Source: a virus | Reading direction: 5' to 3' (one strand) | Length of the DNA: 57,895 nt | IMG/VR virus record: IMGVR_UViG_3300037508_000466 | Coordinates: 1 to 57,895 of that record | Shown: positions 23,962-48,280 of the stretch, in pieces | Layout of the letters: each line of letters begins with the position of its first letter | Position numbering within the stretch: position 1 is the stretch's first letter | The notes under the pieces: generated by a model | What the model saw: the letters and a program-made list of their open reading frames with translations, nothing else | Told to the model about the DNA's origin: nothing | The model's database searches: none | Translations under genes and position numbers: made by a program

Positions 23962-23968
23962 ATCGTAT

Positions 23969-23976
23969 TATATTTG
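23969..23976 (+). promoter_or_regulatory. Bacteroidota -7 promoter box
   Basis: TATATTTG in the 29-bp gap before the first tandem paralog, 14 bp before its ATG. Confidence 0.6.
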
Positions 23977-23990
23977 CCTAAAATTTAGAT

Positions 23991-24350: not shown

Positions 24351-24351
24351 A

Positions 24352-24687: not shown

Positions 24688-24689
24688 TC

Positions 24690-25289: not shown

Positions 25290-25309
25290 TAGTTTTTTTT
25301 TTGATAGCG

Positions 25310-25346
25310 GCCACCCTCTGATTTTTCGGGGGGTGGCTTTTTGTTT
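25310..25346 (+). terminator. rho-independent terminator
   Basis: Stem GCCACCC / GGGTGGC (plus T-G pair) at 25310-25337 followed by TTTTT; ends the paralog 1-3 segment and overlaps the leader of paralog 4. Confidence 0.85.
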
Positions 25347-25358
25347 TATTTTTGTGTC

Positions 25359-26380: not shown

Positions 26381-27297
26381 GTATAACGCAATATGAGTAT
26401 TACGAGAATAATGGCATCTCACCACAGGATGCCAACTGGGGTAGTTATCAGTATGTCAGCCTCAAGGACATAGTCAATAACTTCATGTTGATGTACCAGG
26501 GCAATAATGAGGCCATCAACAACATCAACAGGTATCAAGTCATCTTCCATGCCAAACGTGGCATACAGGAGCTCAATTACGATGCTATGAAGGAGGACAA
26601 AATCTTAGAGCTGCCTGTTGGTAGTGATTTGAAGATTATCCTGCCATCTGACTACGTCAACTGGACGCGGATATCTGCTGAAATCAATGGTGTCTTATTC
26701 CCACTCAGCGAGAACATACAGACTAACTACGCTAGGGCTTATCTACAGGACAATGCAGGCAATCTACTCTTTGACCAGAACGGCAATGTGTTATCTCCTC
26801 AGTTTTCAGAACTTGAACTTGGCCGTATCAACAACACTGCGCCTAGTATCTACCTAAACCCAAACAGCCCTTATAACGGGTATCAGGGGTGGTGCATTGA
26901 CGACGTGTGGTATTTCCGGTATGGCATTGGTGGGCGGTATGGCTTGAACACAGAAACAGCAAATGCCAACCCTACGTTCGTTGTTGACAAGCGTGGCGGT
27001 GTCATTAACTTCAGCTCAGACATGAGTGGGCTGTTGTGTGTCATCGAGTATGTGTCTGATGGCCTTGAGTCTGGTGATGATACTGCGATTAGCATAAATA
27101 AGATGTTTGAGGCGTATATTTATGCCTACATCAAGTACATGATACTATCCAATAAGGCAGGGACTCAAGAGTACTTAGTGAGGAGGGCGCAGAATGAAAT
27201 GCGAGCTGCTTATAGGAATGCCAAGATTAGATTGAGTAATATTCACCCGGGTCGTCTGCTTATGAATATGCGTGGACGTGACAAAATAATTAAATAA
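26377..27297 (+). CDS. putative tail tube / ring protein, 306 aa
   Basis: Characteristic segment RYQVIFHAKRGIQELNYDAM then LKIILPSDYVNWTRISAEIN, followed by beta structure and the helical C-terminus YIYAYIKYMILSNKAGTQEY. Similar proteins sit between the portal-side ring and the gp10-like stabilisation protein in crAss-like phages, where they form the short tail. Overlaps both neighbours by a few bases. Confidence 0.75.
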   Translation: MSITQYEYYENNGISPQDANWGSYQYVSLKDIVNNFMLMYQGNNEAINNINRYQVIFHAKRGIQELNYDAMKEDKILELPVGSDLKIILPSDYVNWTRISAEINGVLFPLSENIQTNYARAYLQDNAGNLLFDQNGNVLSPQFSELELGRINNTAPSIYLNPNSPYNGYQGWCIDDVWYFRYGIGGRYGLNTETANANPTFVVDKRGGVINFSSDMSGLLCVIEYVSDGLESGDDTAISINKMFEAYIYAYIKYMILSNKAGTQEYLVRRAQNEMRAAYRNAKIRLSNIHPGRLLMNMRGRDKIIK

Positions 27298-30200: not shown

Positions 30201-31931
30201 TTCTATGACTGCTGGACTTTTGGCAATGGAATAGAAAGTTACAAGATTAAAGATAGTATAACGGGAAGGTCTTTTGGTCTTGGACAAAAGGTTCATGCAT
30301 CTTCAGTGGTCCCATATAGGGAGGAGCGAAGATTATCCGATATTATTTATAGCGGAGTTTACAATAGGGAAACCAATTTAAATAAACTAAATGAATTTAA
30401 TATAGGTCTGCTGAATTTCAAGTCCTTAGAAGCGTCATATGCTAGTATACAAAGGATGCACCAGCGTGAAACTGACATCCTGGTATTTCAAGAGGACAGA
30501 GTATCAAGGGTTCTTGTTGGTAAAAATATAATTAGTGATGTCGTTGGCGGTGGCGCCCTTGCGTCTGTTCCAGAGGTTCTTGGAAATCAAATTGTGATAT
30601 CTCAGGAGAATGGAATTAGTACTCACCCTCAGTCATTCGCTAGTTATGGAGATAGGATTTATTTTACTGACGTCAAGAGAAGTGTTGTTCTTCAATTGAT
30701 TGGAGATCAGTTGAAAAATGTATCTGACGCGGGTATGATATCTTTCTTTAAGAAAACTTTTGATTCTATAGGAAGCGGTCCTGTGAGAGGGGGATTTGAT
30801 CCATATTCTAGGGAGTATGTATTATCCGTTCCGGCATTTCCTACTGAGATTATTGAAGACTTAGTCTGTGGATTTTCTAAGAATATAACCAATACCAATA
30901 GCGTTACCGCGTATATCATTAATGTTGATATATCTAGTGTGCCGCTTGGGGATGTGCTCATATCATGGTCTGCATCGACTGGGGAGGATGGATTTGGGGA
31001 TATATTTTATAATGGCGCACTTGTATACAGTATCGTTGATTTCTTGGCGCCAGGTAGTTTTAACCTTACCAAAATTTTTGGTGTTGATACGCTTACGATT
31101 TATATATATCCTAATATACCTCCCGATGCAAACTACTTTTCTATTTCACTTCAAGTTGGGTGCCCTGTGCCTAGTGAAATAGAGGTGATACTTGTCACGG
31201 TGACATCGCCTGAATTTACTGGACAGACTATCGAGCATTATTATAATGGTCAGTCCGCCATTGTTACCCTTGGACCCAATGTAACGACTACATATCCTAT
31301 AGTGGCTCAATGGACGTCTTTAGGGCCTGTGGCGCAAGGAGGGTGGCTTCCAGCTAATGGAGGTGCCATTAAGATGCATACCGTAAAAGGGCCTTTGAGT
31401 ACATACAATCCAAATATTTCATTAGATAAATTTAGGCGGTTAAGAACAAATACTACTTATCCGGCAACATCTACTGGAGCGGCTAACCTTCTTGCGGCTT
31501 CTACTATATTGCCGTCATTAACTGTTGACACAGACTACGCCCCATACCCTGGATGGGCTAGCACATTCAATCTTCCTACTACTGGGAGTAAGCTGTATTT
31601 AATATGGGATTATAGAAGGGCCACTCTAACTGATGCGTGTTACAATGCGGAAGGATCTCCAGAGACTGTGTGCTGTAGCTGCGCGTCCTCATGTCCTTCG
31701 TGCACGATGTGGCAGTCAAGTGGCATATTCCTCAGTTCTGTTCAGGCTTGTGCGGCGCCTATTGTAATGACTATATATTCCGATTCGACGTTATCTTTGG
31801 GGAGTAAAGTGTATTTTGATGAGGAATGCTCTTTCACTGCATATCCGGGATTTTATCAAGTGGCCCCCCCTGGTAAATTTATTCAAGTCGATGGATCTGG
31901 AACTATAATTCAAACTCTCACAAGCTGTTAA
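27297..31931 (+). CDS. tail stabilisation / adhesion protein (P22 gp10-like), 1544 aa
   Basis: N-terminus NFIGGKMNHDLDPRMIPQGD and YMYAINARI followed by LIDDLLYFTDNLNSPKKINV is the hallmark of the P22 gp10-like tail stabilisation proteins of crAss-like phages, which form the tail hub. Middle parts contain fibronectin-like and mostly beta segments with MRVKLDGW, and a hub signature ETDILVFQEDRVSRVLVG / YFTDVKRSVVLQL (about residues 1060-1140). The C-terminal 130 residues are cysteine-rich (CCSCASSCPSC) and end with a GFYQVAPPGKFIQVDGSGTI motif shared with the next gene product. Probably contacts the cell surface. Confidence 0.82.
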   Translation: MKETYNFIGGKMNHDLDPRMIPQGDYMYAINARITSPDNLSESGALRTAPGTSTLTSLEYNGTPIDSTKVKTRCIGAYKDESNNTVYWFVHCEELNTPFTEFPSGTLDLIMSYNEDNGTLTYHVVDDKGVLNFSFDYTITGISLIDDLLYFTDNLNSPKKINVKFTYTDYFTDYRLDVIVSPPKSAPSIEFITTTSTSDYIEDRFLAFSYRYKYENGEYSALSQYSEIAFRPGLFFLDPSTLLNDGMKNKFLAVRISFNTGGKWVTDIELCVKAADSNEVYVVQSWNKRRENWGDNILRFVDFTGDKSYSVLPSTEWVRLYDNVPRRALAQVIMGNRLMYGNYLENYNISTKFLYGGQANFIDVESKSILGTLSSYIYKDNWYQTVAPQTVSSAQFSFNMAQYATGVPIGTEISFAVPVASARVVGNPLTPPNYLFPVTWNRFFVFYFQAPRNYTSLLDLINDAAFKRKLGADANYYNYPITYNVLGIPNNCSFGGSITDEFICAIGGTRNGFTMAVVGGNSLIDNGFQVSLAGSVMNFILPAVGYSNGAGAYRHEYFYVTGAPTININIPATNKSLHSNRTYELGMVYMDEWGRSSTVQLSKNSTIEIPAFNSNTANYIKATIPRTQLPPPWAKKYKWVLKPTKMGYDTIYSSIYYKDGDRAWIKLDGESQNKVEVGDILYVKRDSAGATLRNVKVEVLDKEVKPDQWGGGRIPGVYMRVKLDGWTANFDQSNIRTVTGDVSEQNSSAWNGYGGVVLDLFDAGPPTVVRWPVNAGALVEIYIRVWRNGRNCGGSSRNCGQRSSLFHYKNYVSSANYDDFKQFWEGEGIDINLSTKDGGSCPDDAGQCVDAYNSSFLIANVPPAIDLTNQYQFSIQAAGQQLNNNAPLQFIIRSGTKSCAWPGPRTSNIEARIVIQNNPQFLVFETEPNDAAANLFYENEEVFDILNGYHQGNVQNQTGLTSAISNLGFYDCWTFGNGIESYKIKDSITGRSFGLGQKVHASSVVPYREERRLSDIIYSGVYNRETNLNKLNEFNIGLLNFKSLEASYASIQRMHQRETDILVFQEDRVSRVLVGKNIISDVVGGGALASVPEVLGNQIVISQENGISTHPQSFASYGDRIYFTDVKRSVVLQLIGDQLKNVSDAGMISFFKKTFDSIGSGPVRGGFDPYSREYVLSVPAFPTEIIEDLVCGFSKNITNTNSVTAYIINVDISSVPLGDVLISWSASTGEDGFGDIFYNGALVYSIVDFLAPGSFNLTKIFGVDTLTIYIYPNIPPDANYFSISLQVGCPVPSEIEVILVTVTSPEFTGQTIEHYYNGQSAIVTLGPNVTTTYPIVAQWTSLGPVAQGGWLPANGGAIKMHTVKGPLSTYNPNISLDKFRRLRTNTTYPATSTGAANLLAASTILPSLTVDTDYAPYPGWASTFNLPTTGSKLYLIWDYRRATLTDACYNAEGSPETVCCSCASSCPSCTMWQSSGIFLSSVQACAAPIVMTIYSDSTLSLGSKVYFDEECSFTAYPGFYQVAPPGKFIQVDGSGTIIQTLTSC

Positions 31932-32892: not shown

Positions 32893-33702
32893 ATGCCTGT
32901 ATTATCTTATAGCGAACTATCATCAGGATGGCCAACATACTACACGTTTTACCCCGAGTGGATGATTGGCGTAAATAATAATTTTTACAGTTTCCAAGAT
33001 GGCAATTTGATTAAACATAATGATGTTTATAGCCCTAATATGTATGGCGTTGCAATTCAATCCGCCATAACATTTTGTGCCAATAAAACTCCTCTTGTAA
33101 ATAAATTATTCAAGGCCGTTTCTTTGGATGCTAGTGCTCCGTGTGATTTTTTCATAAGTTCTACGTGGGCAAATCTTGTTGCGCAGCCCGGACCACTTCT
33201 CCAAGATGCCGATGGTTCTGGGCAGATTCTTAGTAGCTATTTCGTGAAAAAAGAGTCGATGTGGTTTTCAAACATCTCTTTATTCGCTCCTTCTTCTCTT
33301 TCGTATAGAAACATGACTGGTATGGGAATAGCCAGTAATGTTACTACAGTAGGGTCGAATAGTGTTTTCATTTTTACAACTCCAATCAGCGAAACTATTT
33401 CAGTTGGTGATTTTTATGGATATGTAACACTGCCATCTGCTGTTGTATCGTCTGAAATTGGCACAATCACCGCTATAAGCAATGATAGACTTATTGTATC
33501 TACCATGAATCTTCTCCCTGCTCCTGTTGTTAACGATTTTATATTTAGTTACAAGAATATTAACGCCGAGTCTTATGGCTATTTAGCATCGGCACCAGTA
33601 GTAGGTCTTACAATAGCTGTTTACGTGCCTCCGGCTTTTAATGAGACTAAGGTAAATGAGATATTTTCTGTTGAATTTGACGTAATGAAGTCGTTCCCAT
33701 GA
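32893..33702 (+). CDS. tail structural protein, 269 aa
   Basis: N-terminal part contains FYPEWMIGVNNNFYSFQDGN and LIKHNDVY, text that in crAss-like phages is found near the end of the gp10-like stabilisation protein, so this may be a split-off part of that protein. The remainder is beta-rich. ATG preceded by an A-rich leader (AAAAAAAAAT). Overlaps the acetyltransferase gene by 4 bp. Confidence 0.7.
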   Translation: MPVLSYSELSSGWPTYYTFYPEWMIGVNNNFYSFQDGNLIKHNDVYSPNMYGVAIQSAITFCANKTPLVNKLFKAVSLDASAPCDFFISSTWANLVAQPGPLLQDADGSGQILSSYFVKKESMWFSNISLFAPSSLSYRNMTGMGIASNVTTVGSNSVFIFTTPISETISVGDFYGYVTLPSAVVSSEIGTITAISNDRLIVSTMNLLPAPVVNDFIFSYKNINAESYGYLASAPVVGLTIAVYVPPAFNETKVNEIFSVEFDVMKSFP

Positions 33703-34094
33703 TAGTAGTGCCTATGCGAGATGGGGACTACGAGTCTTTGCTGACGCCATGGTGGAAGGACTGGGGTTGGGTGCCACCGGCTAAGGACTATTTGCCAAAT
33801 ACCGGGTTTATCCTTTATGACGAAGACACGCCGGTATGTGCTGCATTCCTGTATATGACTAACTCGAAGGTGGCATGGATTGAATGGCTTGTGTCTAACA
33901 AGAGTTACAGAAAAAAACCAGGGAGACGCGAAGGTATATTATTTTTGCTAAGTTATATGATTGAGGTCGCTAAGCAGTCTGGATACACTTACATCACCGC
34001 TATCGCAGAGAATCAGCATGCCATAAACATATACGAAACACTAGGATTCATTTCAGATAAAGGGAAGTCACAAACACTTATATTATGGCAATAG
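33699..34094 (+). CDS. GNAT-family N-acetyltransferase, 131 aa
   Basis: A compact GNAT fold: strand TGFILYDEDTPVCAAFLYM, strand AWIEWLVSNKSYRKKPGRRE (the acetyl-CoA pyrophosphate loop region, although the usual Q/R-x-x-G-x-G/A is irregular), helix GILFLLSYMIEVAKQ, strand YTYITAIAENQHAINIYETL and GFISDK, the classical N-x-x-A-x-x-x-Y-x-x-x-GF end. Transfers an acetyl group from acetyl-CoA to an amine; target unknown. Unexpected inside a tail/ejection cluster, which suggests modification of a virion or host cell-surface component. Confidence 0.88.
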   Translation: MIVVPMRDGDYESLLTPWWKDWGWVPPAKDYLPNTGFILYDEDTPVCAAFLYMTNSKVAWIEWLVSNKSYRKKPGRREGILFLLSYMIEVAKQSGYTYITAIAENQHAINIYETLGFISDKGKSQTLILWQ

Positions 34095-34873
34095 CAACGG
34101 CAACAGCAATATCATTAGGTATAGCCGCAGCGGGAACAGCAGGCTCATTCGCACAAGCATCGAAGCAATCTAAATTGGCCAAACAAGCGAAGGCTGATGC
34201 TCAGAAATATGTCGAAGAGGCCAAGCGTCAGGCTAGTATTAACTACATGGATGAGTTGGCATTAGCCAAGGAGCCTTATGATATACAACAGAGAGCGTTG
34301 CAACAGCAGGGTGCTGACATTATGCAACAAGCTGCCGAGGGTGAAACCCGTGGCGTGGGTGCTGCTGCTAGTCGCATTATGGCTGCGCAGACACAGGCGC
34401 AGGAGCAGCAGAGAGCGCAGATGGCTGCCGACATCCAAGCCCTTGAGATGACCAAGAGGCAGGAAGACGCTCGTATCGCCCAGTCGTTGGCGGGCATATC
34501 GTTAGGTGAGGCAACTGGGGCGCAGATGGCCGCTCGTGATGCGGAAAGAGCCAGGGCCGCTGCCATTCAATCCGGAGTTGAAGGCTTATCTAGCATGGCC
34601 ATGACTGGTTTAGATGCCGCGAGTCCACTATATCCAGATCAGGGCAATAAAGGGCCAATAGGTGGCAAGGTCGCCCAAGGAGATGCGGGACAACAAACAT
34701 TTAGACCTGGGTACACTCCTGGCGGACGCATGGATAGAAGGGACTATAGACGGCAAGCTAGGGCAAATATGATGAATGACAATCTTTCTACGCGTTTAAG
34801 CGGTGTTCTTATGCCTGGGGAAGAGGTCGGAAGTGAAATATTCGGAAGTGAAATGTGGGGCTCTTTTGATTAA
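34085..34873 (+). CDS. internal virion protein, T7 gp14-like, 262 aa
   Basis: N-terminal hydrophobic Ala-rich helix (ISLGIAAAGTAGSFAQ), then long Gln/Ala coiled-coil helices (ALQQQGADIMQQAAEGETRG, AQTQAQEQQRAQMAADIQAL) and a flexible C-terminus. This composition and its place right before two further internal proteins match T7 gp14, the first ejection protein that forms the outer-membrane part of the DNA ejection channel. Overlaps the GNAT gene by 10 bp. Confidence 0.75.
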   Translation: MAIATATAISLGIAAAGTAGSFAQASKQSKLAKQAKADAQKYVEEAKRQASINYMDELALAKEPYDIQQRALQQQGADIMQQAAEGETRGVGAAASRIMAAQTQAQEQQRAQMAADIQALEMTKRQEDARIAQSLAGISLGEATGAQMAARDAERARAAAIQSGVEGLSSMAMTGLDAASPLYPDQGNKGPIGGKVAQGDAGQQTFRPGYTPGGRMDRRDYRRQARANMMNDNLSTRLSGVLMPGEEVGSEIFGSEMWGSFD

Positions 34874-34895
34874 CAAACAAATAACGCATTGATTT

Positions 34896-36353
34896 ATGTC
34901 ATATTATGGATATGTAGAGAGGAAGCCTGAAGATGTGCAGGTAAACTGGGGAGAGATATCCCAGGGGATAATCAAGTCTGTGCAGGACTGGGAGAAGGGC
35001 AGGGAAGATCTTAAGGAGAAGCTGGATAAGGAAACCAGAGAAACGCAGAAGGCGATATCTGAAATTCCGGAAACTAAAAGCGAGCCGATTCAGACGTGGA
35101 TTCTCGACACAGCAACCACGGCTTCCGAAAGATTGGCTGAATTGAATAGAAAGCTGAAGAGTAATCAGATTACCCCTCGTAATTACAATTTATTGAGGTC
35201 GAACATAATGTCTGATGTCACTGGCGTGTATGCATTTGCAAAAGCCTACGATCAGGGATATGCCGCTAAACTTCAGCGCGTATCTGATGGTAAGGCGGGG
35301 TATGTAGAAAGGAAAACTGCTGAAGATACAGAGAATTTCATAGGCAATAGTTTAAGTGATTTGACGCCATTTATAGATGAAACTGGCACTTTGATGTATA
35401 AAAAGCCCGATGGCAGCTCAATGAGTTATAGGCAGATAGTAAAAAACTCTTCTATAAAGCAGGATAATAAAAATGCAGTTTTAAACATCACGAAGTATGC
35501 TCAATCAATGAAGGCTCATGAGGTTCGGCAACCGGATGGCAGCTACAAGTCATCCCCTTCGCTTAATGAAGATGCCAAAAGAGCCATAGATTCTTATGCG
35601 GCTCAGTTTCTTATCAATCCAAACGATGTCGCGGACATATTATTTGATGCTGGCAAAAGAGAGGGATTTGAAATTAAGGATGGGAATGTCGTGATAACCG
35701 ACAAAGATCGTCAAGATGCAAAGCAGGTGTTGATTGATGCGGCATATGGTACTTTCGGTATGCAAGTGACCCCTGCCCCTAGGGAATCGATAGCATCTAG
35801 CGGATCTAGCGGGGATAAGCCGGATAAGCCGACGGAAGCTGATGAAAAGGCGATAAGATATGGACAGGCTTTAAAAAACCTTACAACCAATGCCAATAAA
35901 TCTGTGCTTTCCCAAAACATAGGCATGCCGAAGGGGACGTATGATGGAACGAACAAAGTGCTTACTACGTATGATAAAGATGGGAAGAAATATGTCACTC
36001 GGTTTAACAGCGGAGTGGAGGCCATGGATTTTCTTATTACACAATCAGGATATGATCCGGCATATGTAAAGAGAGGGCTTGGGAACGCCAATTCTTTGGG
36101 TGGATTTTCTTGGGATTTTTCAGCCAAGCAGGAGACTCCAAAGCCAAAGGTTGTTGATTTAGTAAAGGAAAGTGATGATTTGGAGAATTGGGCATATAAA
36201 CTAAACGAAAAGGATTCAAATACTAAGGGTAAAATATATTATTCTAAAAATAAGACCATTGTCGTAAAATACCCCGACGGCACTTATGGCGAAAGCGATG
36301 ACTTGGAAGAAATAAATGAGTACATAAAGAAATACAACAGACTAACGAGATAA
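34896..36353 (+). CDS. internal virion protein, T7 gp15-like position, 485 aa
   Basis: A charged, mainly helical protein (residues 1-280) with a low-complexity Ser/Lys/Pro linker (ASSGSSGDKPDKPTEAD, about 303-319) and a C-terminal part with WDFSAKQETPKP. It sits between the gp14-like and the giant internal protein, the same order as gp14-gp15-gp16 of T7, so a component of the ejectosome is likely. Stop shares one base with the next ATG (TAATG). Confidence 0.7.
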   Translation: MSYYGYVERKPEDVQVNWGEISQGIIKSVQDWEKGREDLKEKLDKETRETQKAISEIPETKSEPIQTWILDTATTASERLAELNRKLKSNQITPRNYNLLRSNIMSDVTGVYAFAKAYDQGYAAKLQRVSDGKAGYVERKTAEDTENFIGNSLSDLTPFIDETGTLMYKKPDGSSMSYRQIVKNSSIKQDNKNAVLNITKYAQSMKAHEVRQPDGSYKSSPSLNEDAKRAIDSYAAQFLINPNDVADILFDAGKREGFEIKDGNVVITDKDRQDAKQVLIDAAYGTFGMQVTPAPRESIASSGSSGDKPDKPTEADEKAIRYGQALKNLTTNANKSVLSQNIGMPKGTYDGTNKVLTTYDKDGKKYVTRFNSGVEAMDFLITQSGYDPAYVKRGLGNANSLGGFSWDFSAKQETPKPKVVDLVKESDDLENWAYKLNEKDSNTKGKIYYSKNKTIVVKYPDGTYGESDDLEEINEYIKKYNRLTR

Positions 36354-39300
36354 TGGCAAAGCAGCCCACTAAACTACCATCTATTCCTAATCTCAGTCAG
36401 CTATCCGAGGCCGGAAGGGCATTGTCACCGCCTGTTGTCAGTGTCCCTATTGACGAGCTGTCTAAAGAAAGATTGAAACCTAAAAAGGAGCCGGTAACAA
36501 CGCCTCTTGGCAGACCTATAGTTAAGCCATTCGCCCCAGACGTTCAGCAGCGTATTGAGGAGAGGTTATCCGAAGAGGCCGACAAAGAAATAGCGGAAAT
36601 AGACTACTCCGCAGAGCCTATAGATCGCGCTTATCAAATGGATGTTGAAGAGGAGGGGCTTTTAGATGAGGTGTTGGATGATGCTTTTTTGAAGATGACG
36701 GCTCCTGAGCCATTTGTTGAAGACTTAGCGATGGGGGTCAGCTCTCCTGTGAAAAAAAAGCCATCGGCAAAAGACATCACCCGATACTTAAACCTAAACT
36801 TAGGGAAGTATGGCATTGTCTTCGATGTAGATGAGTTGAATAATATAGAGGCTAGGGCTGGCGACAAAAGCATAAAAGTTGATTTGAGTAGCGGGTTCTT
36901 AAAGTCTTCGGAAGGACAGAGGTCGGAAATAAAGAGACTCAAAGATTTCGTTGTCAAGGAGGCTGTTACCCCTGAAGTTGGGGTATCAATCAGTAATGAA
37001 AACCGGATAAAAAATGAGCTCGCACAAGAGCTGGGTGTCAATCAGCGGGAAGCCTATGATGTTTACAATAGGCGCAAGTCAATCAGAAATTTGATTAAAT
37101 ATATCGATGAGAATGAGCAGAATGAAAGCGCAATGGCCTCTCTCGAGAAGAAATACAAAAAGGGCAGGTTTGAACTTTTGCAGGATTTGAAAAAAGAGGC
37201 AGAGGATATATCGCCAACTGCTGATGCATACGAAAGAGATTATATTTTAGAAGTGGATAAAAGACTTGAAGCTCAGGTCAAGGAATCTACAGCCCAGGCG
37301 ATTAAGCTGAGAAATATCGGGGAGTCATTGACAAAGAGTAGTGCAGACAGGTTTAAGGCAGTAACTGGAGTTGACCTAACGCCAGATAATGTTAAGAACT
37401 TAAAGTTTGCTAACAAAGATCAGTACGATTCGGTGGCAGAGATATTGAATGATTACGCTAAAGGCATCGACGTTCAGAAGCAGGCATTCAATAAATATGA
37501 GGATGCCAAAATGTACTTTAATCAAAAGACGAACAAGCAAATCCAAGAGGAAACCGTTGGGTTTATAGAGGGGGTTTCTAATAGCATTAAGAATGCCTAT
37601 TATAGTACTAAAGGTGCTAAGGAGTATGTCAAGTATGCATCAGGACTGATAACCCAAGAGGAAGCCAATAAAAGGATGGCGTACTATAGCTCAAAGCCGC
37701 AGTTGCCGTTGAGCAAGACTCAGTTGATGTTGATGCAGAGAATGGAAGAAGAGGGCACGTTTGATTTTCTCGGATACCTTTCAGATCCTACGGTATTGTT
37801 GCCTGCTGCTACCACCTTAGCTGCCGATGCTCTCACTCAGATGATAACGATGACGGGAGGGGAGATGTTGAGTATTCAGGCTGCGGGTGGTGTCATTGGT
37901 GCTGGCGTAGGGCTTCTCGCCACCAAGACTCCCGCTGGCGCGGCTGCTGGCTTTAGAATGGGGATGTCTGCTGCGGGTACATTCAACGCATATGTTGGCA
38001 ATGTCGTTTCTAATGTGGCATTAGAGGTTGGCTTGAATGTCTTTCAGGCAATGAAAGAGAAATACACCCCAGAACAAATACGCAGAGGCGAGTGGGTCAA
38101 CGATCCCGAAATTGAAGAAAAGGCAATGAAGGGGTTGATTAAGGGCGGTGCTATAGCCGGCACTGAGATTATACTACAGGCTATGCTTGATAAATTCAGG
38201 ATATCATCCATTGCATCTGCCGCCAACAGGGTGTCTAGAACAGTGGTCAAGAACGCAGCGTTTGAAACTATACAGGAGGGGGGTGGAGAGGCCATAGGGC
38301 AGCTTGCTGCATATGGTGAATTGAATGGAAATGAAGTAGTGGCCGAGATGCTTGGTGCCGGGGGGATGGTGGCATCAAACCCATTTGGGTTTTATAGAGA
38401 GGTCTACATGCAGCTTCGCAACAATTACTACGAGGACCTTGCTGATAATATGTCTAAAAGTAGGGCATTCATCAACAACACTGGAGATGATATCAATAAG
38501 GTTCAAGAGTGGACCGGAAACATGAGGAAGCTGGGCAAGATTACCGAGGAAACGGAGCGCAAGATTGTCGAGAACATTGCTGACATCCGTCAGGCTCGCA
38601 TTGCGCTAAGCAGCCTTGATGACACTGATGCGCAGCGGACTAAGACCATCGAGAAGGGCACGAATACCAAGGCAGAAGACAGGCTCGCTGACTTATATGC
38701 CGCCAAGAGGAAGTTAGAGAGAACGCCGGCACTTAATAAGCCATTGCAGCAGTCGATACAGAATGAAATAGACAGCATTGTGCTGAACAAGAAGGTGCCC
38801 AAAGAGGTCCTGAATCTATCGCCCATTATTGGCACTGGACCTGTGTATAAGGTTGATGGCGAGTATGTGGGCAAGAGGTATCTTGATATGATAGTGAAAC
38901 GTATGCCGCCATCGGTTCTGTCTCGCATGAATATTGAGATTGAGAATGACGACGCTATGAGCAGGGCAGTGGCGGAGAAGATTGAAGATGATGTGTCGTT
39001 TAATGCGGCAGACTATGGCGATGACAAGATTACGTTCGTGGCTAACGACCTCGATGGACTGCCCCCGAGGTTTAGAGATAAGGCTAATTACAATAATTCA
39101 ACGCGTAAGTACGAGGTTGAGGTCGACAAGTCGGAATTGGCTAAGCCAAGCAAGGATGTGTCGGATGCTGACTACGAAGCGTTTAAGCAGGGCCAAGTTA
39201 ACGACGATGTCTTGGCGTCTATTGCTGATGATATTAGCGAGGGAAGACGCCCCACTGCTCGACAACTTGAGATATACAATGCCAATAAAGATGCGGTTAA

Positions 39301-42300
39301 TGCTAAAGTTGGCGCTGAGTATACTGTTGTTGACCCGTCTTCAAATTACTTTGGCGCTCTTAGGAAGGTGCAGATGGGTGGAGTGGTGTATGCTAAAAAT
39401 AAAATCACTGGCAGGGTTTATGAGGTCAAAACGAAAAACGCATTAGACTTAGCGTATAACTCAGGGGCAAGGATAACCGCAGAAAAGCCAGTGCGGAAAG
39501 TTTCAGGAGAATTTACAACCCAAATAGTATATGGACAAAAAGCAGCAGAACGAGGTAACAGACTCTTTAATGAGCCCATCCCGGAAGTTTCGAAAATTGC
39601 GGATAGATATTTTGAAGCAACTTTCGGAAGACCGCGCCCGCGCTGGTATGGCTCGAGAAAACTCGACAAAGAAAGGGCGAAAAGAATAGCGAAAGCGTAT
39701 GAAGAGATGGAGGACAATCCACTCGACCCAATGGTGAAGGCGGCTTATGAGGCATTGGCAAATGAAACCATGGCGCAGTATAGGTATATGCTCGACGCTG
39801 GCTATGTCATTGAAATCAATAATGAAGAGCCGTACACAAGCTCTGCTGATATGATTGCCGATGTCAGGGACAATAAAAGAATGAAGATATATTCTACCGA
39901 ATCTGGATACGGGAATGAGGGCATAACTCCAGAGCAGAGAGAGAGGAACATTCTTTTGCATGACTCCGGTTATAAAGATGTCAACGGACAGACGCTGCTG
40001 GTCAATGACGTGTTTAGGGCTGTTCACGATTTCTTTGGTCATGCTGCATTGGGAAATTCATTTGGAGCCACTGGTGAAGAGAACGCATGGAATCTTCACG
40101 CGAGGATGTATTCTCCATTGGCAAGACAGGCTGCAACAGCGGAACTTAGAGGCCAGAACTCATATACCAATTTTTCTGGCGTTAATGAAAGAATGGAGGC
40201 TCTAAGACAGGAGGCGGCAAAGCTAAGAGAAGAAGGTAAGTTCGATGAAGCGGCGGCTATAGTTCAAAAGGTGTATGACACCATTAAGTTTGCTGAGCAG
40301 AAGCAGGGATTATTACCGGAGGAGTTCTCAATGGTAGATGAGTCTGATACCGGTGACGAGAAGTTCATGCTAATAGTTGACGGACAAGAGGTGTTAAGCC
40401 CAGAGGGGGTTGATGAGTTCAAGAAGTTTGCTGCGTCAGTGGCCTCTAGGATTGGCATTAGCGTTGAGTTTATAAACGATGAAAGGGCTTTATTCAAAGG
40501 AAAGTACATACCCTCTAAAAAAAGGGCTGTCATTAACTTGGCCTACGCCAATGCTGAGACCGTTTTTCATGAGATACTCGGGCACCCGATCATTGAAGCT
40601 ATGCGCAATGACCCTGAGTATAGTGAGTTGTATGAAAATTTGAAGAATGAAATAGAGACGACTGAATTGGGGCAAGAGGTATTGAGCAATGTAAAAAATA
40701 AGTATAAGTTTGAAGATCCGGATGATTACATTGATGAGGCGATAGTCACATTGCTTGGCATAATGACTGACAAGGTGTTTAAGGAAAAGCAAAACACTAA
40801 GTTATTGGGAATGCTTAAGGAGATGCTGAAAAAAATGGCAAGTTTTGTTCAGTCTCTGGTAAAAAATGACTTTATACTTTTGAGCGACATTCCGTCAAAC
40901 GCCACCATTAAAGATATTGCTACTATAATAGGCGCGTCGGAGTCGAAAATAGTACTGCCAAGAGAAGGACTATCCAAAAGGCTTAGTGGGGATGCGCTCT
41001 TAAATGCCCAGGATTTATCTAATGAGCTGCTTGATAATGGTGCCAAAATAGACGCGGATGGCTTAGTGACGGTTTATCATAGAACGACAGATGATAAAAA
41101 AGCGCAAATAGAACAATCCGGCATAATGCTTGGATTAGAGGATGGCCTTTTCTTTTCTACGAAAGAAAGTGGACAGGCGGAAGGCTATGGAGATGCTGTG
41201 ATACAATTAAGGATTCCTATTGAGAAGCTACAACTTGACGATACTTTTGGCGATGAGGCTCATGTCAGAATCCCTACATCCAAGCCAAGGCAATCTGTAG
41301 ATGTTTCTGCTTATTTGACTCAGCCTACAAGCGAAGAGATAGGCATGCGCGACGGAAGGGAAATGTACCAAGTAGAGGGGTGGCACGGGTCTCCTTACGA
41401 ATTTGATAAGTTTACAACTGAAAAGATAGGCACGGGAGAAGGAGCGCAGGCATTTGGCTGGGGGCTGTACTTTACGGACTTGAAGAGTATTGCGGAGATG
41501 TATGCAAAAAAGCTATCGGGGGACGAGTATTCTTATGACGGAAAATTAATAAGCAAAGATGCCTACAGTTACTTATTTCTTGCGGATGACAGTTATGGAG
41601 ATAATTTTAACGAAAACACGATAAGGGATATTGCTAAAGTAGCAATAAACAAGATAAAAAAAGAATACATACCTGACTTAAAGGAAATTGCCAAAACGTC
41701 TCGCTCTGAAAAACAGAGAAGTGAGATGCCTAATGAAATAAAAAAACTAAAGGGTATTATTAAAGAACTTGAGAACATAATATCTAGCAAGGAAATTAAG
41801 TTAGAAAAGAACAAGATGCTCTACAAGGTAACACTCCACAAGGGGAAGACCCCTGACCAATACGATTGGCTGGAGTGGGATAAGCCGATTAGCGATTTAA
41901 ATAGAAATAAAATTAACTCGCAATTTGAAAAAGAAAATTTACCTAAAGAAGTAAGTGATTCGGGTGCAAATGAAACTATGCGTCTTTTGGGCAAAAAGAC
42001 AGACTATAAAATATATAGGCCACGACCAATATCAGGCAGTGGAAAAGATTTCTATAATGATTTAACGAAATACTTTTATGAAAGTGGTATAAAAAATCCA
42101 CAAAAAGAAGCCTCTTTATTTTTACTTCGCGCTGGAATTGATGGCGTAAAATACCCCGCAGAGAGTATAGCACGAGGCGTAACAAGCGATACCGCTAGAG
42201 GCTTCAACTATGTTGTGTTTGACGAAAATGCCATTACCATAGATGATCGCACTCAATTTCAAAAGACATCTGAAATGGAGGGGGCATCTCAGGAGTATGT

Positions 42301-45300
42301 TGAGAAAGTGCTGTCGACAATGATGGCCAAGTTCAATGTGCCGTATCAGATAGTAAACGAGCCATCAGACAGCAGGCTTGGGTGGACTAGCTGGGACTCC
42401 ATGGGCAACCCAACGGTGTACGTCAACATGGCGCAGAAAGTGGGGTTTGACACCCCTATTCACGAATATGGACACGTTTTCATTCATATGATTAAGAATG
42501 GGAATAAGAATGCATGGTCTCAGATATTAAAAGAGCTGAAATATGGTGATGGCAAGCAAGAGCTTGAAAGAGTAAAGCGAGAATATCCTGAGCTAGATGA
42601 ATCGGGGGCTTTCATGGAAGCCGCAGCATCTCTGCTCGGTAAATATGGCGCTGAACAACTAGACCCGAAGACAGGTGAGTATAGACTGGCAGAAAAAATA
42701 TGGACTGCTGTAAAGCAGGTTATAAATGATTTCTTGAAAGCATCGGGAATCAAATATAAGTTAAATGTGGCCCAAGTACCTGCAAGCATCAACGCTGCTA
42801 GTACATTGCAAATGCTTTCTCTGTTGTTGACTGACCCTGATTTTAGTCTTACCGGGGGCGGGGTTGGTATGGCTAAGGTACCGTTTCAGCTTTCTGCCGA
42901 GGCAAACAATATGCTGCAATATATTTCAAATAGGTTTGAATCAACTATTGTTTCATCGGATTCTTATGAACAAACCAAATTTATATTTAGCATCAAAAGT
43001 TTGAATAGATTTAGGAATCAAGTAGTAAACAAGAGATTTAGGGAAAAGAATAATAAGTTTGTAGAAGCTCTTAAAAATAAATCCGATAGGAATCTTCTTA
43101 TTGATGTGCTTAAGAATGTCCGCCAAATACTTGATGATAACGAACACAATTCAGGTCCTCTCCATGACGTAGAATTATTAAGAGCTTTTAGTGAGCTAGA
43201 TCGGCTAAGCGTTCATAGTTATGGGTATTCAGATGCCGTGTCTTTTCTGGGTGATTTATTTTTAATTCATCACGGAAATTTGTTAAAAATATTACGCAAT
43301 TCAGTTCTTAAATATCCGCCTGCTATGCTCGGGTTAATGAATTTACGGCGGCTTATATCCGGGTCGAATTTTGATGATGTTTCTACCCAAGACAATAAAG
43401 CAGTACGCACATTTTTAATGCCAAATAAGGGCGAAGATGTTTTTGCTGATATAATCAGTAGTATTGAACTTGATGAAATTACCGAGTTTACTGACGAAGA
43501 TTCGGCTAATCAGGATTTAGTGAATTATATAGCTGAAGATTTTGCAACTTTAACTGCTATGAGGGGCCTTTCCATGACTCGTTATGCTCAAGAAACTTAT
43601 ATTAGGGTTGGAAGTGGCGACCCTATAAATACTCTTGCCAGCACCTATTATGTGGCCACGAACGTAAGCGGCGATTTTAATCTGTCAGATGCGATATACC
43701 GGGATCCAAGTCGTCTAGCGATGTCGGAGGAGTTTGATGATTTAATATTAGGGAATATTTATGGATTTTCTGCTGACTATGTGCTTGTTGATTTGCTTAC
43801 CGGTGATGCGGGGAAGGTTCTCCCATCCGATGACTCAGTCATAGAGTCTGTAAAAAATGCCCTTACGTCTAGAGAAAAGGAGGCATACGATAATAGTGCG
43901 GCAAATCAGGCTTCAAATTACAGGAAGGGTACATTCGAATATTTCCATAAAGGAACGAATAGGATGGAGGGCATAGAGGTTACTGGAAATTATAGTGAAT
44001 ACAACAAATCAATAGGGATTAGCTTTACTAACAATGGACCGACTTATAGTGGGTATACAGATAATAAAGCAGGTATGACTGTAATGCCACTTGTCGTCAA
44101 GAAGATCATAGAGATGTTCTCTGACGTTGAGTATGACTCTATAAATTTCACGCCCTTAAGCAATGATGGCGTTAATCAAAAAATAAAACAAGATTCTCAG
44201 GGCAAAAATGTGAACAACAGGCTAAACATGTACAACGTGTATGCAATAAGGCTATTTGGAGAGTATAGTCTTATTAAAATAGATGATGATTATCAGCGTT
44301 CAATTCCAATACCTGAAGTATTCAAGACCAAGGTATTAAGAGACGTGGTTCAGGACCAACGGCCTTCATCTAGCAACACGGAATGGGCTGTTAATAGTGC
44401 GCCGAGCAATGTAGTGGAGCTTGCTAAGTTTCTCAATCATGCCTTCCCGGGAGTAGAGGTATTCATGAGTGCAGATGAGTTCAATAGGATGCGTGAGAAC
44501 GGGGAACTCGATATGGTTGGCGAAGTGTATGGCATGACAAAAGATGGGAAGATTTATATCAACCCAGATGTTCATAACTCGGAGTCAGAGCTGTTTAACA
44601 CCTTAATCCATGAGTTTGGGCACATATGGCTGAACTACATCAAGGTCCACAACAGCGCACTCTATGCGCGTGGTATCGAGTTGGTCAAGTCAACCAAAGA
44701 GTACAAGGCAGAATTAGCTAAGGGCAAGTCGCCTAATCAGGCAGCGGATGAAGCACTCGCCATCATCATCGGAAACCGGGGAGCAGAGGTAGTAAACCCG
44801 AAGATGAAAAACTGGCTTAAGTCTTTATGGAGGTACATCACGAAGTATCTGGGCCCTATTGAAACCATGACGCTCGATGACTTCATCAACACGGCTCTTA
44901 GTGACCTGTTGAGTGGCAAGCCAATACCACAGTCATCAGAAGCGTTTGAGGTCACGCTCATCCCTAATCCTCAGTTTAGAGAGGACAGAGATATCATAGA
45001 CATCGTGAGGGACGCTAGAGATAGAGGGTATACAGATGATGCGATTAAAAGGTATCTGCAAATCAATAAGTATGAACAGGACGACATAACCATGTTTATG
45101 AGTGGCCTCGGGAATGTTATTACCAACATAAAATCCCCTGAACTAATGCCATTTCCTCCTGCGTTTGCCAATGTGCCAGGAGGATACCACGAGGGGCTGG
45201 CGGTGTGGAATAGAGTGAGAACGGTAGGTGTAGACCTATACAGAAACAGGAAGAAGCGCAAGGCTATAAAGGGGCAAAAAGGTCTTGGAGATACTATTGT

Positions 45301-48280
45301 AGATGCTATGATGGAGGCGCTTAAGGCGGAGCCCGCATACATAAATGCAACGATTGACGTCAAGAAACAGATGATGGTAGGGTTGCTTAACTCGAGCGAC
45401 ATCAGAATGAGCCGGAATATGAGGGCGTCTCTGCGCAGGTTGGCAATAGAAGCTAAGAGCATAGTCCGGGGCGGGAAGATAGCGAACACTGCTAAGGCTC
45501 AATTGGTGTCTTACATTATTGCTAGTCTGCCCAAATCAAAGTACACCACTAAAGAGGTTAAGTCTTTGCTTGAAAAAGTCAAAAAGGCTACAACCACAAA
45601 TATGGCGCAGATTATAGACGAGGTGCGGGATACAATTGCGACCATAAAGAACAGAGATCTTAAGTCTAGCATATCCAAAATGCTGGAAACAAAGATAACG
45701 AGTAAGAAAAAGGGCGTAATCTTAGGCAGGACGACTGTCGATGCTCAAGTTTTGCTGAACGCCCTAAATGGGGGTATGCTCATGAGTGAAGATAGCCCAG
45801 CGGCAAACATTGAGGCCAAAATAGCAGAGCAGTCTGTTGCCCTCGACACTCTACTTAATGAGATTAGTGCTCAGCCGTATGAAGTCCAAGAAGAGATACA
45901 AAGGAACATAGAGGCTCTTACGATAGCGGTTAAATACAATGCATCCTTGCTTATGGATGACAGCAATGATGGCAAGACGGACGTGCTAAAAGAAGTTGAC
46001 GATGAGTTGAAAAGAATACTCCGAGGAGAGAGAGCAAAGTTCTTAGAGGATAAGATTTCAAAGGCTAAGCGTAGAAATGAGTTAGCTGCAATTATGGCAT
46101 CAGACATCCTGCAAGTTGATGCAGATGAGCTGATGGCATTAATTGACGACAAGGAAGAGCTTGATAAATTAAAGCAAAGACTTTCCGATAGAACTGCGAA
46201 AAGAGAACAGAGATTCGTCCAAAGGTTTATAGATACGATAGTTGGCTTCTTGTCTGGGACGACGGAAGACTTCACCGGCATCATAAACAAGGTGTCTATT
46301 TCGGCAGTATCGTTATTTGAAGGTCTCGCATATGATATGACTGTAAGGAGGATATCCGATGCTCAAAAGGAATACGATAGACTTAATATACTCACACAGG
46401 ATATGCTTCAAGATGCAGCCAAGAGGATATTTGGTCCTAAGTGGGAAAGGGTGCTTGCCAACAACGCTAAACAAAACATTTCCTTCCCTGGGTTTGACCA
46501 AAAATTTAGCGTCAATCAACTGTACTACATATACAATCAGTATAAAAATCCGGCAAATCAAGAGTCCGTATTAAGTTCATTCAAAGATGCTGCCTCTAAA
46601 TATGGGATGTCGGAGTTGGAGTTTTTTGAATATATGTTAGACTTCCTTGCGAGAAACCACCCTGATGTTATTGAGTGGGCTGACTGGCAGGTTGATGAGT
46701 ACTTCCCTGCTGTATACGAACTGTATAGCCCTGTGTATGAGCGTGTGTTTGGCAGTCCACTCCCATGGGAGAGGCATTATGCAGGAATGTTAGTAAGAGA
46801 AGGGGTGTCGTCAACTCCTGAAATTTCAACTCTCTTTAGTGAGTTTAGATTGATAAGCCCAACTGTAGCGGGGGCGTCTACAAAGTCTAGGGTTAAATCA
46901 AAGTCTTCCATTAAGTTCATGGATGGGGATAGCATACTAAAGAAATACACCAGAGAGATGAATTTCTTTGCGTCTTTTGAAGAAGCTATCCGTGATGTTG
47001 CAAGCATATTTAACAATCAGCTTGTCAAGAAAGCCATAGAAGCCACTTCTGGCAAAAAAGTTTACAACAGCCTTGTTACGATGATAGAACGAATACAAGG
47101 AACGGGGTATGTGGAAGATCCTGCGTCTTTCATTATCACAGGTACTAAACAATTTGCAATAGCCAAGTTGGCGGGGAACTTTAGGGTGTTCCTGTCTCAG
47201 ATGACTACTGGAATGGGGTATGTCGCTGATATAGGGGCTGTAAAATTTGGCGTATATGCAGGAAAGATTCTCGGCGATCCATTCAAGATAAAGAGCATGG
47301 TCGATGAAATGAAGGAGTATAATGCCACCCTAAAGTCAAGGCTTGATGGTATTGATCTCAACGTCCTGTTAGGGGCATTGGGCAAAACTGATGACAATTT
47401 CTGGATCCCTCAAAAGTGGGTTCAGCACATGATGATTTTGGCTAGACTGGGTGACAAGTATGGTATCTTGACTGGCCTCCCGTTATATGCATACTACAAG
47501 GACAAGTACTTAAAGCAAGGCGTGAATGAGGAGTCTGCAAAGAAATTAGCTGCCGAGAAGTTTATGACTATAACTTCAAATGTCGCTCAGAGCAACAACC
47601 CTCAGAACAAAGGGCTGACTCAAACGGCAAGTGGCGGGATTGGAGACTCTATATTAAAGTCATTTACGCTGTTTGCATCTCAGCCGTTGCAATATCTTCG
47701 TATAGAAATCATGTCCATTAGGAATATGTATAGAATACTCTTAAGCACAGGGCCAAAAGGAGTTAAGTCAGAGGAGTTTGCAAAAAATTTGAGATCGTTT
47801 ATAGCTTTTCACTTTGTGATGCCGCTATTCTATAACTATGTGTTCTTGCTTGGCATGCCCGGTATTCTCAATAAATGGGATGATGATGACGAGAAAGACA
47901 TGATACTAACCGGCATTTTAGGCAATATTACCGCATTGATACTTATTGGCGATGTCATAGAGTCGTTTAAGGACTGGTACACCGGTAAGCCATGGGCATC
48001 TGACATGAGGAATACTCCATTCCTGATGGCGGCCAAAGACATCGTGAAGTCACTTCAAGATTATAACCGTGCCAAATCAGATTCTAAAAGGCAGTCGGCT
48101 ATGATAAAAATTGCGGCAAATATTACCGACTTGTCCGGCATCCCGGCGGGTACTACGCTCAAATACTACAAGATAATAGAAGAGATGATTGACGGCAAAA
48201 GTAAATTTGGCAAGAAAATATACGATTTATTCAACATGGAAGAAGAGGTCAAAAAAGGTCCGCCACCTCCTCCTATGTAG
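36353..48280 (+). CDS. giant internal virion (ejection) protein with three zincin motifs and ART-like segments, 3975 aa
   Basis: Position analogous to T7 gp16. Visible order: charged helical N-terminus with a Pro-rich start; hydrophobic/membrane-active region about residues 475-660 (ALTQMITMTGG, VIGAGVGLLATK, GGAIAGTEIILQ); an uncharacterised polyvalent-type domain with DVFRAVHDFFGHA (His1225, His1230) and AELRGQNSY; zincin 1 HEILGH at 1406-1411; first ART-like segment VYHRTT at 1574 and LFFSTKESG; second ART-PolyVal-like segment EGWHGSPYEFDKF from about 1675 with GWGLYFTD and FNYVVFDENAITI near 1948; zincin 2 HEYGH at 2037-2041; zincin 3 HEFGH at 2753-2757; long helical region; C-terminal membrane segments MPLFYNYVFLLGMPGIL and MILTGILGNITALILIGDVI; poly-Pro end. 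Proteases and ADP-ribosyltransferases injected with DNA could attack the wall or host defences (inference). Confidence 0.9.
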   Translation: MAKQPTKLPSIPNLSQLSEAGRALSPPVVSVPIDELSKERLKPKKEPVTTPLGRPIVKPFAPDVQQRIEERLSEEADKEIAEIDYSAEPIDRAYQMDVEEEGLLDEVLDDAFLKMTAPEPFVEDLAMGVSSPVKKKPSAKDITRYLNLNLGKYGIVFDVDELNNIEARAGDKSIKVDLSSGFLKSSEGQRSEIKRLKDFVVKEAVTPEVGVSISNENRIKNELAQELGVNQREAYDVYNRRKSIRNLIKYIDENEQNESAMASLEKKYKKGRFELLQDLKKEAEDISPTADAYERDYILEVDKRLEAQVKESTAQAIKLRNIGESLTKSSADRFKAVTGVDLTPDNVKNLKFANKDQYDSVAEILNDYAKGIDVQKQAFNKYEDAKMYFNQKTNKQIQEETVGFIEGVSNSIKNAYYSTKGAKEYVKYASGLITQEEANKRMAYYSSKPQLPLSKTQLMLMQRMEEEGTFDFLGYLSDPTVLLPAATTLAADALTQMITMTGGEMLSIQAAGGVIGAGVGLLATKTPAGAAAGFRMGMSAAGTFNAYVGNVVSNVALEVGLNVFQAMKEKYTPEQIRRGEWVNDPEIEEKAMKGLIKGGAIAGTEIILQAMLDKFRISSIASAANRVSRTVVKNAAFETIQEGGGEAIGQLAAYGELNGNEVVAEMLGAGGMVASNPFGFYREVYMQLRNNYYEDLADNMSKSRAFINNTGDDINKVQEWTGNMRKLGKITEETERKIVENIADIRQARIALSSLDDTDAQRTKTIEKGTNTKAEDRLADLYAAKRKLERTPALNKPLQQSIQNEIDSIVLNKKVPKEVLNLSPIIGTGPVYKVDGEYVGKRYLDMIVKRMPPSVLSRMNIEIENDDAMSRAVAEKIEDDVSFNAADYGDDKITFVANDLDGLPPRFRDKANYNNSTRKYEVEVDKSELAKPSKDVSDADYEAFKQGQVNDDVLASIADDISEGRRPTARQLEIYNANKDAVNAKVGAEYTVVDPSSNYFGALRKVQMGGVVYAKNKITGRVYEVKTKNALDLAYNSGARITAEKPVRKVSGEFTTQIVYGQKAAERGNRLFNEPIPEVSKIADRYFEATFGRPRPRWYGSRKLDKERAKRIAKAYEEMEDNPLDPMVKAAYEALANETMAQYRYMLDAGYVIEINNEEPYTSSADMIADVRDNKRMKIYSTESGYGNEGITPEQRERNILLHDSGYKDVNGQTLLVNDVFRAVHDFFGHAALGNSFGATGEENAWNLHARMYSPLARQAATAELRGQNSYTNFSGVNERMEALRQEAAKLREEGKFDEAAAIVQKVYDTIKFAEQKQGLLPEEFSMVDESDTGDEKFMLIVDGQEVLSPEGVDEFKKFAASVASRIGISVEFINDERALFKGKYIPSKKRAVINLAYANAETVFHEILGHPIIEAMRNDPEYSELYENLKNEIETTELGQEVLSNVKNKYKFEDPDDYIDEAIVTLLGIMTDKVFKEKQNTKLLGMLKEMLKKMASFVQSLVKNDFILLSDIPSNATIKDIATIIGASESKIVLPREGLSKRLSGDALLNAQDLSNELLDNGAKIDADGLVTVYHRTTDDKKAQIEQSGIMLGLEDGLFFSTKESGQAEGYGDAVIQLRIPIEKLQLDDTFGDEAHVRIPTSKPRQSVDVSAYLTQPTSEEIGMRDGREMYQVEGWHGSPYEFDKFTTEKIGTGEGAQAFGWGLYFTDLKSIAEMYAKKLSGDEYSYDGKLISKDAYSYLFLADDSYGDNFNENTIRDIAKVAINKIKKEYIPDLKEIAKTSRSEKQRSEMPNEIKKLKGIIKELENIISSKEIKLEKNKMLYKVTLHKGKTPDQYDWLEWDKPISDLNRNKINSQFEKENLPKEVSDSGANETMRLLGKKTDYKIYRPRPISGSGKDFYNDLTKYFYESGIKNPQKEASLFLLRAGIDGVKYPAESIARGVTSDTARGFNYVVFDENAITIDDRTQFQKTSEMEGASQEYVEKVLSTMMAKFNVPYQIVNEPSDSRLGWTSWDSMGNPTVYVNMAQKVGFDTPIHEYGHVFIHMIKNGNKNAWSQILKELKYGDGKQELERVKREYPELDESGAFMEAAASLLGKYGAEQLDPKTGEYRLAEKIWTAVKQVINDFLKASGIKYKLNVAQVPASINAASTLQMLSLLLTDPDFSLTGGGVGMAKVPFQLSAEANNMLQYISNRFESTIVSSDSYEQTKFIFSIKSLNRFRNQVVNKRFREKNNKFVEALKNKSDRNLLIDVLKNVRQILDDNEHNSGPLHDVELLRAFSELDRLSVHSYGYSDAVSFLGDLFLIHHGNLLKILRNSVLKYPPAMLGLMNLRRLISGSNFDDVSTQDNKAVRTFLMPNKGEDVFADIISSIELDEITEFTDEDSANQDLVNYIAEDFATLTAMRGLSMTRYAQETYIRVGSGDPINTLASTYYVATNVSGDFNLSDAIYRDPSRLAMSEEFDDLILGNIYGFSADYVLVDLLTGDAGKVLPSDDSVIESVKNALTSREKEAYDNSAANQASNYRKGTFEYFHKGTNRMEGIEVTGNYSEYNKSIGISFTNNGPTYSGYTDNKAGMTVMPLVVKKIIEMFSDVEYDSINFTPLSNDGVNQKIKQDSQGKNVNNRLNMYNVYAIRLFGEYSLIKIDDDYQRSIPIPEVFKTKVLRDVVQDQRPSSSNTEWAVNSAPSNVVELAKFLNHAFPGVEVFMSADEFNRMRENGELDMVGEVYGMTKDGKIYINPDVHNSESELFNTLIHEFGHIWLNYIKVHNSALYARGIELVKSTKEYKAELAKGKSPNQAADEALAIIIGNRGAEVVNPKMKNWLKSLWRYITKYLGPIETMTLDDFINTALSDLLSGKPIPQSSEAFEVTLIPNPQFREDRDIIDIVRDARDRGYTDDAIKRYLQINKYEQDDITMFMSGLGNVITNIKSPELMPFPPAFANVPGGYHEGLAVWNRVRTVGVDLYRNRKKRKAIKGQKGLGDTIVDAMMEALKAEPAYINATIDVKKQMMVGLLNSSDIRMSRNMRASLRRLAIEAKSIVRGGKIANTAKAQLVSYIIASLPKSKYTTKEVKSLLEKVKKATTTNMAQIIDEVRDTIATIKNRDLKSSISKMLETKITSKKKGVILGRTTVDAQVLLNALNGGMLMSEDSPAANIEAKIAEQSVALDTLLNEISAQPYEVQEEIQRNIEALTIAVKYNASLLMDDSNDGKTDVLKEVDDELKRILRGERAKFLEDKISKAKRRNELAAIMASDILQVDADELMALIDDKEELDKLKQRLSDRTAKREQRFVQRFIDTIVGFLSGTTEDFTGIINKVSISAVSLFEGLAYDMTVRRISDAQKEYDRLNILTQDMLQDAAKRIFGPKWERVLANNAKQNISFPGFDQKFSVNQLYYIYNQYKNPANQESVLSSFKDAASKYGMSELEFFEYMLDFLARNHPDVIEWADWQVDEYFPAVYELYSPVYERVFGSPLPWERHYAGMLVREGVSSTPEISTLFSEFRLISPTVAGASTKSRVKSKSSIKFMDGDSILKKYTREMNFFASFEEAIRDVASIFNNQLVKKAIEATSGKKVYNSLVTMIERIQGTGYVEDPASFIITGTKQFAIAKLAGNFRVFLSQMTTGMGYVADIGAVKFGVYAGKILGDPFKIKSMVDEMKEYNATLKSRLDGIDLNVLLGALGKTDDNFWIPQKWVQHMMILARLGDKYGILTGLPLYAYYKDKYLKQGVNEESAKKLAAEKFMTITSNVAQSNNPQNKGLTQTASGGIGDSILKSFTLFASQPLQYLRIEIMSIRNMYRILLSTGPKGVKSEEFAKNLRSFIAFHFVMPLFYNYVFLLGMPGILNKWDDDDEKDMILTGILGNITALILIGDVIESFKDWYTGKPWASDMRNTPFLMAAKDIVKSLQDYNRAKSDSKRQSAMIKIAANITDLSGIPAGTTLKYYKIIEEMIDGKSKFGKKIYDLFNMEEEVKKGPPPPPM

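Follow-up and report, generated by a model that had tools for sequence, protein, structure and literature searches.

Polyvalent proteins of phages and conjugative elements are an established class of multi-enzyme chains that are predicted to be injected into the host (Iyer et al. 2017, PMC5512222). They carry one to five copies of a zincin metallopeptidase (MPTase) domain, and an HExxxH variant of the motif has been described for these zincins (PMC5512222). The timing of cleavage differs between described systems: P1 DdrB is cut before packaging, whereas N4 vRNAP is packaged whole (PMC5512222). The latter is a virion-borne protein of ~3,500 aa with one zincin-type motif ~1,270 aa before its C-terminus (PMC12633501). 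In the podovirus ejection protein T7 gp16, hydrophobic regions are found close to each end of the chain, and the central part is located in the cytoplasm of the host (PMC8954989).

Here, we analyzed a virus record of 57,895 bases (the window), in which one open reading frame at 36353-48280 (+ strand) starts with ATG and encodes 3,975 aa without an internal stop, in agreement with the preliminary description of this DNA. A copy that is 100% identical over all 3,975 residues exists in IMG/VR. The encoded protein, hereafter the giant, resembles the polyvalent class in several ways. It is encoded by a phage with terminase and portal genes, and the gene order gives it a virion context. It combines several disparate enzyme domains on one chain, namely zincin copies that include an HExxxH variant, an ADP-ribosyltransferase (ART) domain with an H-Y-D triad, and an HDxxGH module, and its C-terminal half matches proteins named polyvalent. 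It differs from the class in that the HDxxGH module is absent from Pfam and NCBIfam and in that it has three zincins, whereas each of 77 other giants has one. Judged from its sequence, the giant belongs as a new member to the known class of polyvalent proteins, in which its number of zincins is unusual and one of its modules has no name.

Genomic context of the giant gene

The genes that place the phage encode the terminase, the portal and virion structural proteins (15896-31931, + strand). Using PHROG profiles, the terminase matched phrog_6681 at 3.6e-169 and the portal matched phrog_6547 at 1.1e-137. By terminase and portal, the phage is closest among annotated genomes to MW202828 (69% and 67% identity, respectively), Maribacter phage Panino, the Flavobacterium elemo phages, Cellulophaga phages phi38:1 and phi40:1, and Tenacibaculum phage Gundel_1. 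It is a short-tailed podovirus, and the hosts of these relatives make it likely that its own host is one of the Bacteroidota. A clear GroEL is encoded at 6326-7915, and elemo, phi38:1 and MW202828 likewise have an annotated phage-borne GroEL. The window also contains an intergenic repeat, GCCCCGTCGTAGGTGG, that is perhaps regulatory (689-751, 2618-2680, 3797-3859 and 4008-4070); TGGTGTAATGTCATTACAC comes after two of its copies. An imperfect tandem repeat with a 12-base unit is found at 57733-57857, near the record end.

The giant gene is the terminal gene of the virion operon. Elemo, phi38:1/phi40:1, Panino and MW202828 have the same order, a terminase-portal-virion operon closed by one very large gene; the Gundel_1 giant closes a separate virion block immediately ahead of the terminase. 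The phi40:1 protein that is syntenic with the window giant, gp101 (1,691 aa), has virion MS/MS support (experimental annotation). Together, the terminal position and this virion protein uphold the ejection-protein slot that had been proposed for the giant. A direct profile match between the window giant and phi40:1 gp101 was not found, nor did the frame profiles described below match gp101 of phi38:1 or phi40:1. The two are linked by synteny and through the giant of Gundel_1, gp074, whose N-terminal half matches gp101 and whose zincin and C-terminus match the window giant (hhalign E 1e-33 for the HExGH zincin and 5e-47 for C2). A zincin-like region was also detected in elemo gp18 (prob 88). 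The cargo of these same-slot giants (Gundel_1 gp074, elemo gp18, MW202828 UOF82488 and phi40:1 gp101) differs from that of the window. In the phi38:1 infection proteomics study (PMC13288928), no passage on gp101 was found. Packaging of the giant in the virion and its delivery into the host, both of which we infer, are most likely.

Three genes lie immediately upstream of the giant (131, 262 and 485 aa; 33699-36353, + strand). They had been described as gp14- and gp15-like virion genes, which their position and size fit, but only the 131-aa gene (33699-34094) matches a phi40:1 virion protein (gp098, at 1e-6); the 262-aa and 485-aa genes have no match in phi40:1. The 34085-34873 gene matches the virion structural family phrog_13764. 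Weak acetyltransferase PHROG matches were also obtained for the 131-aa gene.

Like T7 gp16 and the ejection proteins of other podoviruses (PMC8954989), the giant follows smaller virion genes in the gene order, is hydrophobic in regions close to its two ends and evolves as a mosaic; the comparison covered position and hydropathy. It is, however, three times larger than T7 gp16 and has no transglycosylase family match. No peptidoglycan-hydrolase family was matched in the giant with Pfam or PHROG profiles. Hydropathy analysis predicted TM-like segments at residues 505-523, 3816-3834 and 3851-3869, and the N-terminal region N2 is Gly/Ala-rich. Such segments were not found in most relatives tested, and those that pass have them at the C-terminal end. 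Pfam T4SS_pilin matches in 17 of 27 C-termini were taken as hydrophobic-pattern noise.

Zincin copies and the conserved frame

The motifs HDFFGH, HEILGH, HEYGH and HEFGH start at residues 1225, 1406, 2037 and 2753, exactly where they had been placed, with HDxxGH ahead of the HE copies. From the protein's own composition, 0.016 HExxH and 0.002 HE-(x/xx)-GH motifs would be expected by chance. One profile of the HEYGH/HEFGH family matches all three HE regions (1394-1493, i-E 2.4e-8; 2019-2101, i-E 2.5e-21; 2730-2829, i-E 2.9e-30), showing that the motifs are not coincidental. In the copy at 2753, hereafter the frame zincin (residues 2680-2870; 44390-44962, + strand), H2753, E2754, H2757 and the downstream E2800 are invariant in 50/50 aligned relatives. 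The copies at 1406 and 2037 also keep H-E-...-H plus a downstream E-A. Given the common profile and these retained residues, we regard the three copies as homologous zincin domains. The proposal that the motifs lie in metallopeptidase-like domains stands for all three by profile, but HEILGH has to be corrected to HExxxH, not HExxH. This divergent copy (motif at 1406-1411) covers residues 1331-1535 by profile (40343-40957, + strand), and the second HExGH zincin, delimited by profile and the downstream Glu, covers residues 1976-2190 (42278-42922, + strand).

The frame zincin matches the metallo-protease family phrog_87 at 1e-3. All AF2 models had mean pLDDT values of 64-70; the model with the frame zincin had a mean of 69.8, with its zincin part mostly at 67-93 by blocks. 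The elements of the model (H14-25, E30-32, E55-58, E61-64, H72-94 with HEFGH and H122-142 with E2800) correspond to the topology described for zincins of polyvalent proteins (PMC5512222): a helix with the HExxH motif, a helix with the downstream Glu and a three-stranded sheet after an N-terminal helix. For the 1406 copy, the model has a zincin-like order of elements at low pLDDT. Fold prediction, which had been suggested as a check, thus agrees with a zincin for the frame copy.

A scan of IMG/VR with four HExGH domains led to 80 loci, and the giant ORFs examined there number 79, including two near-copies of the window protein. It should be noted that HExGH is found in all of these giants by construction, since the loci were selected for it; this is not the case for the shared flanks. 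N2 (residues 480-800; 37790-38752, + strand; from profile and hydropathy), HExGH, C1 and C2 recur in most giants, and the N2 profile was found in 60 ORFs of the set. The distance from the motif to the C-terminus is 1,348 ± 129 aa in 58 distinct giants and 1,222 aa in the window. A window-type terminase, mostly near 70% identity, was present in 41 of the 49 contigs with the frame. The frame thus delimited would comprise a hydrophobic N-terminal segment, one HExGH zincin and a helical C-terminus of ~1,100 residues (C1 and C2, residues 2871-3975; 44963-48277, + strand; from profiles, AF2 and Foldseek), holding unrelated cargo.

Searching BFVD by Foldseek with the zincin + C-terminus model returned 60 matches to viral proteins at E<=1e-3; they come from podo-, myo- and siphoviruses, and most of those listed have TM ~0.3-0.5. 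Several were named ART-PolyVal or large polyvalent protein, and the matches point to the zincin and C-terminus together as a shared polyvalent-protein architecture. In the PDB, the 1,200-residue zincin + C-terminus model had no Foldseek match at E<=0.001, and the whole-model search was swamped by helices. Sequence searches against solved structures gave nothing convincing.

The preliminary description suggested an injected effector that might act on host defences, wall or repressors; read in this way, each of the three zincins would enter the host and cleave proteins there, for example those of defence. Host-directed action is one option for polyvalent zincins (PMC5512222), and it would suit the 1406 and 2037 copies, which appear to be lineage-specific extras: by the same profile test that gave one copy in each of the 77 other giants, three copies occur only in the window protein and in relatives nearly identical to it. 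The 2753 copy, in contrast, corresponds to the one copy that the other giants have, and its nearly fixed distance from the C-terminus argues that it is a part of the frame and not an exchangeable effector. A role as a protease in processing or packaging explains this copy better, and we find it unlikely that all three copies are effectors. What stands of the injected multi-enzyme effector proposed earlier is the presence of enzyme modules on one chain, in line with an established class; the 2753 zincin would better be left out of it.

Somewhat less probable still is that the zincin and C-terminus of the frame are homologous to C1-C2 of N4 vRNAP, which would make the giant a distant vRNAP relative with other cargo. 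N4 vRNAP has its HELVH motif at residue 2228, with 1,272 aa remaining up to the C-terminus and a large helical C2 downstream (PMC12633501), and it is over this HELVH site that the zincin profile scores best in the protein (i-E 0.0013; in a second comparison, E ~0.001 and prob 22). This homology is not significant, however, in sequence or in fold (N4 structure 9pnr in the PDB Foldseek search, E 2.1, prob 0.03), and no RNA polymerase family match was found in the giant.

Exchangeable modules

Two ART-like segments had been reported between the first two HE motifs. The segment at residues 1665-1975 (41345-42277, + strand) matches Pfam ART-PolyVal (PF18760) at 4e-4 with 21.5 bits; as this is under the gathering cut-off of 31.2 bits, it is not filed as a member of this family. 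Its triad, H1678, Y1706 and D1957, is invariant in 15 sequences and fits the H-Y-D of the ART-PolyVal / HYD clade, where these residues belong to strands 1, 2 and 5, and relatives were found in 29 other IMG/VR loci. The assignment as an ART is supported by this triad and these relatives. The other segment, residues 1536-1664 (40958-41344, + strand), is ART-like by eye only and has no profile similarity to the ART alignment (E 0.3), so that this part of the earlier proposal is not supported. It recurs with 60-72% identity in five other contigs and 41% in a sixth, and we take it to be a real mobile module. An ART relative is also carried by the giant of the methanogen virus vir555 (BK063671, locus L135, 2564-8488); this giant belongs to phrog_9880, which matches the window C-terminus as well.

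Comparison of the giants indicates that the cargo is exchanged as whole modules. In two of them (G004 and G008), the HDxxGH module is the only part in common with the window, and in another (G005) only residues 1537-1664 are shared, at 63%. L175 is 57% identical to the window in the HDxxGH module and 24-30% in the C-terminal frame. In L002 (IMGVR_UViG_3300008120_000321), whose gene is 95-99% identical, exactly the HDxxGH module is missing, in frame, with GGT shared at the junction. Such module-exact exchange, as read from the aligned genes, would be new here. A separate 50-nt deletion in L002 (~12300-12360), real or an assembly error, splits its giant gene into two frames near residue 773. The window segment at residues 2191-2679 (42923-44389, + strand) has no detectable relatives in similarity searches. 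Ten cargo segments of relatives had no Pfam match, and the PHROG search of the relatives' cargo segments yielded one clear match, to a family without an assigned function.

The HDxxGH module, a predicted metalloenzyme (residues 1068-1330; 39554-40342, + strand), matches phrog_3170 and was modelled by AF2 at pLDDT ~80-98. Its invariant residues include H1225, D1226, H1230, E1242, H1249 and E1264. Relatives are encoded in >590 IMG/VR stretches, and most phage ORFs with HDxxGH (88/97) exceed 1,000 aa. No Pfam or NCBIfam family was found above cut-off, and Pfam MATCAP appeared in 2/37 rows for the HDxxGH relatives (best 0.008). The model of HDxxGH plus HEILGH gave weak, non-significant Foldseek matches in the PDB, with IrrE first (E 0.11), followed by other zincins (selecase/abylysin-type) and, lower in the list, MATCAP and tryptophan hydroxylase (E 1.3); these matches come from a two-domain model and are not assigned to either domain. 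HDxxGH differs from IrrE, the selecase/abylysin-type zincins and MATCAP in that Asp replaces the catalytic Glu. An aromatic amino acid hydroxylase, considered from the likeness of the motif, was rejected, tryptophan hydroxylase being only a weak match.

Bacterial genomes also encode HDxxGH as a protein of ~220-310 aa. In nine genomes (L356, L347, L340, L346, L376 and four more), the cellular HDxxGH gene adjoins a conserved gene for an SAH-hydrolase-type NAD-domain protein. The cluster usually adjoins DUF3293, which is fused to HDxxGH in one case. DUF3293 is also present in the elemo giant and, together with HDxxGH, in one further giant; our literature search found no mention of DUF3293. In actinobacteria, HDxxGH has a conserved neighbour in nine loci (3542-5635, - strand, in L375, and eight more), the one member tested being an N6 DNA methylase. 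We tentatively suggest that HDxxGH might be an undescribed metalloenzyme domain taken by phages from a bacterial cluster (SAH-hydrolase-like NAD protein, HDxxGH and DUF3293), and that many phages would carry it as a virion-delivered effector.

That the giant is a purely structural ejection or conduit protein, with enzyme-like modules that are decayed or mere packing mass, is the least probable of the readings weighed here: the homologues of T7 gp16 diverge rapidly and come in different sizes (PMC8954989), and the cargo is wholly different between relatives, with those ten segments lacking a Pfam match, but the frame zincin, the ART triad and the HDxxGH module all have invariant catalytic residues, and conservation of the last far exceeds that of the frame.

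Proposed role of the giant

We propose, with a probability of about three in four, that the giant serves as the ejection protein at the gp16 position of a podovirus and has the build of a polyvalent protein, whose frame packs and forms a conduit, whose modules are delivered and whose frame zincin cuts the chain. We infer its membrane topology, chain cleavage, enzyme activity and host targets as follows. The frame, with its Gly/Ala-rich hydrophobic N-segment, HExGH zincin, ~1,100 helical residues and hydrophobic end pair, would pack the giant in the head and take part in a DNA conduit at the inner membrane. The modules between the N-segment and the frame zincin (HDxxGH, the HExxxH zincin, the mobile module, the ART and the second HExGH) would enter with the DNA. 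By analogy with T7 gp16, and given the TM-like segments, this cargo would sit on the cytoplasmic side. The frame zincin would most likely cut the chain, in the virion or soon after entry, thereby maturing the frame or freeing the modules; both timings are possible, as P1 DdrB and N4 vRNAP differ in this respect. A search for a cleavage site in the giant found none. During the first minutes, the ART and HDxxGH modules may then modify targets in the host.

The giant is ordinary in kind and useful in detail. New here are the three zincin copies, the module-exact exchange and an HDxxGH domain without a Pfam or NCBIfam entry, which is a widespread conserved domain without an assigned function. At the sequence level, the giant shows how a polyvalent protein is assembled: a conserved frame carries a protease whose place hardly varies, and whole enzyme modules are gained or lost between nearly identical phages. 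The role of injected phage enzymes thereby becomes testable one module at a time.
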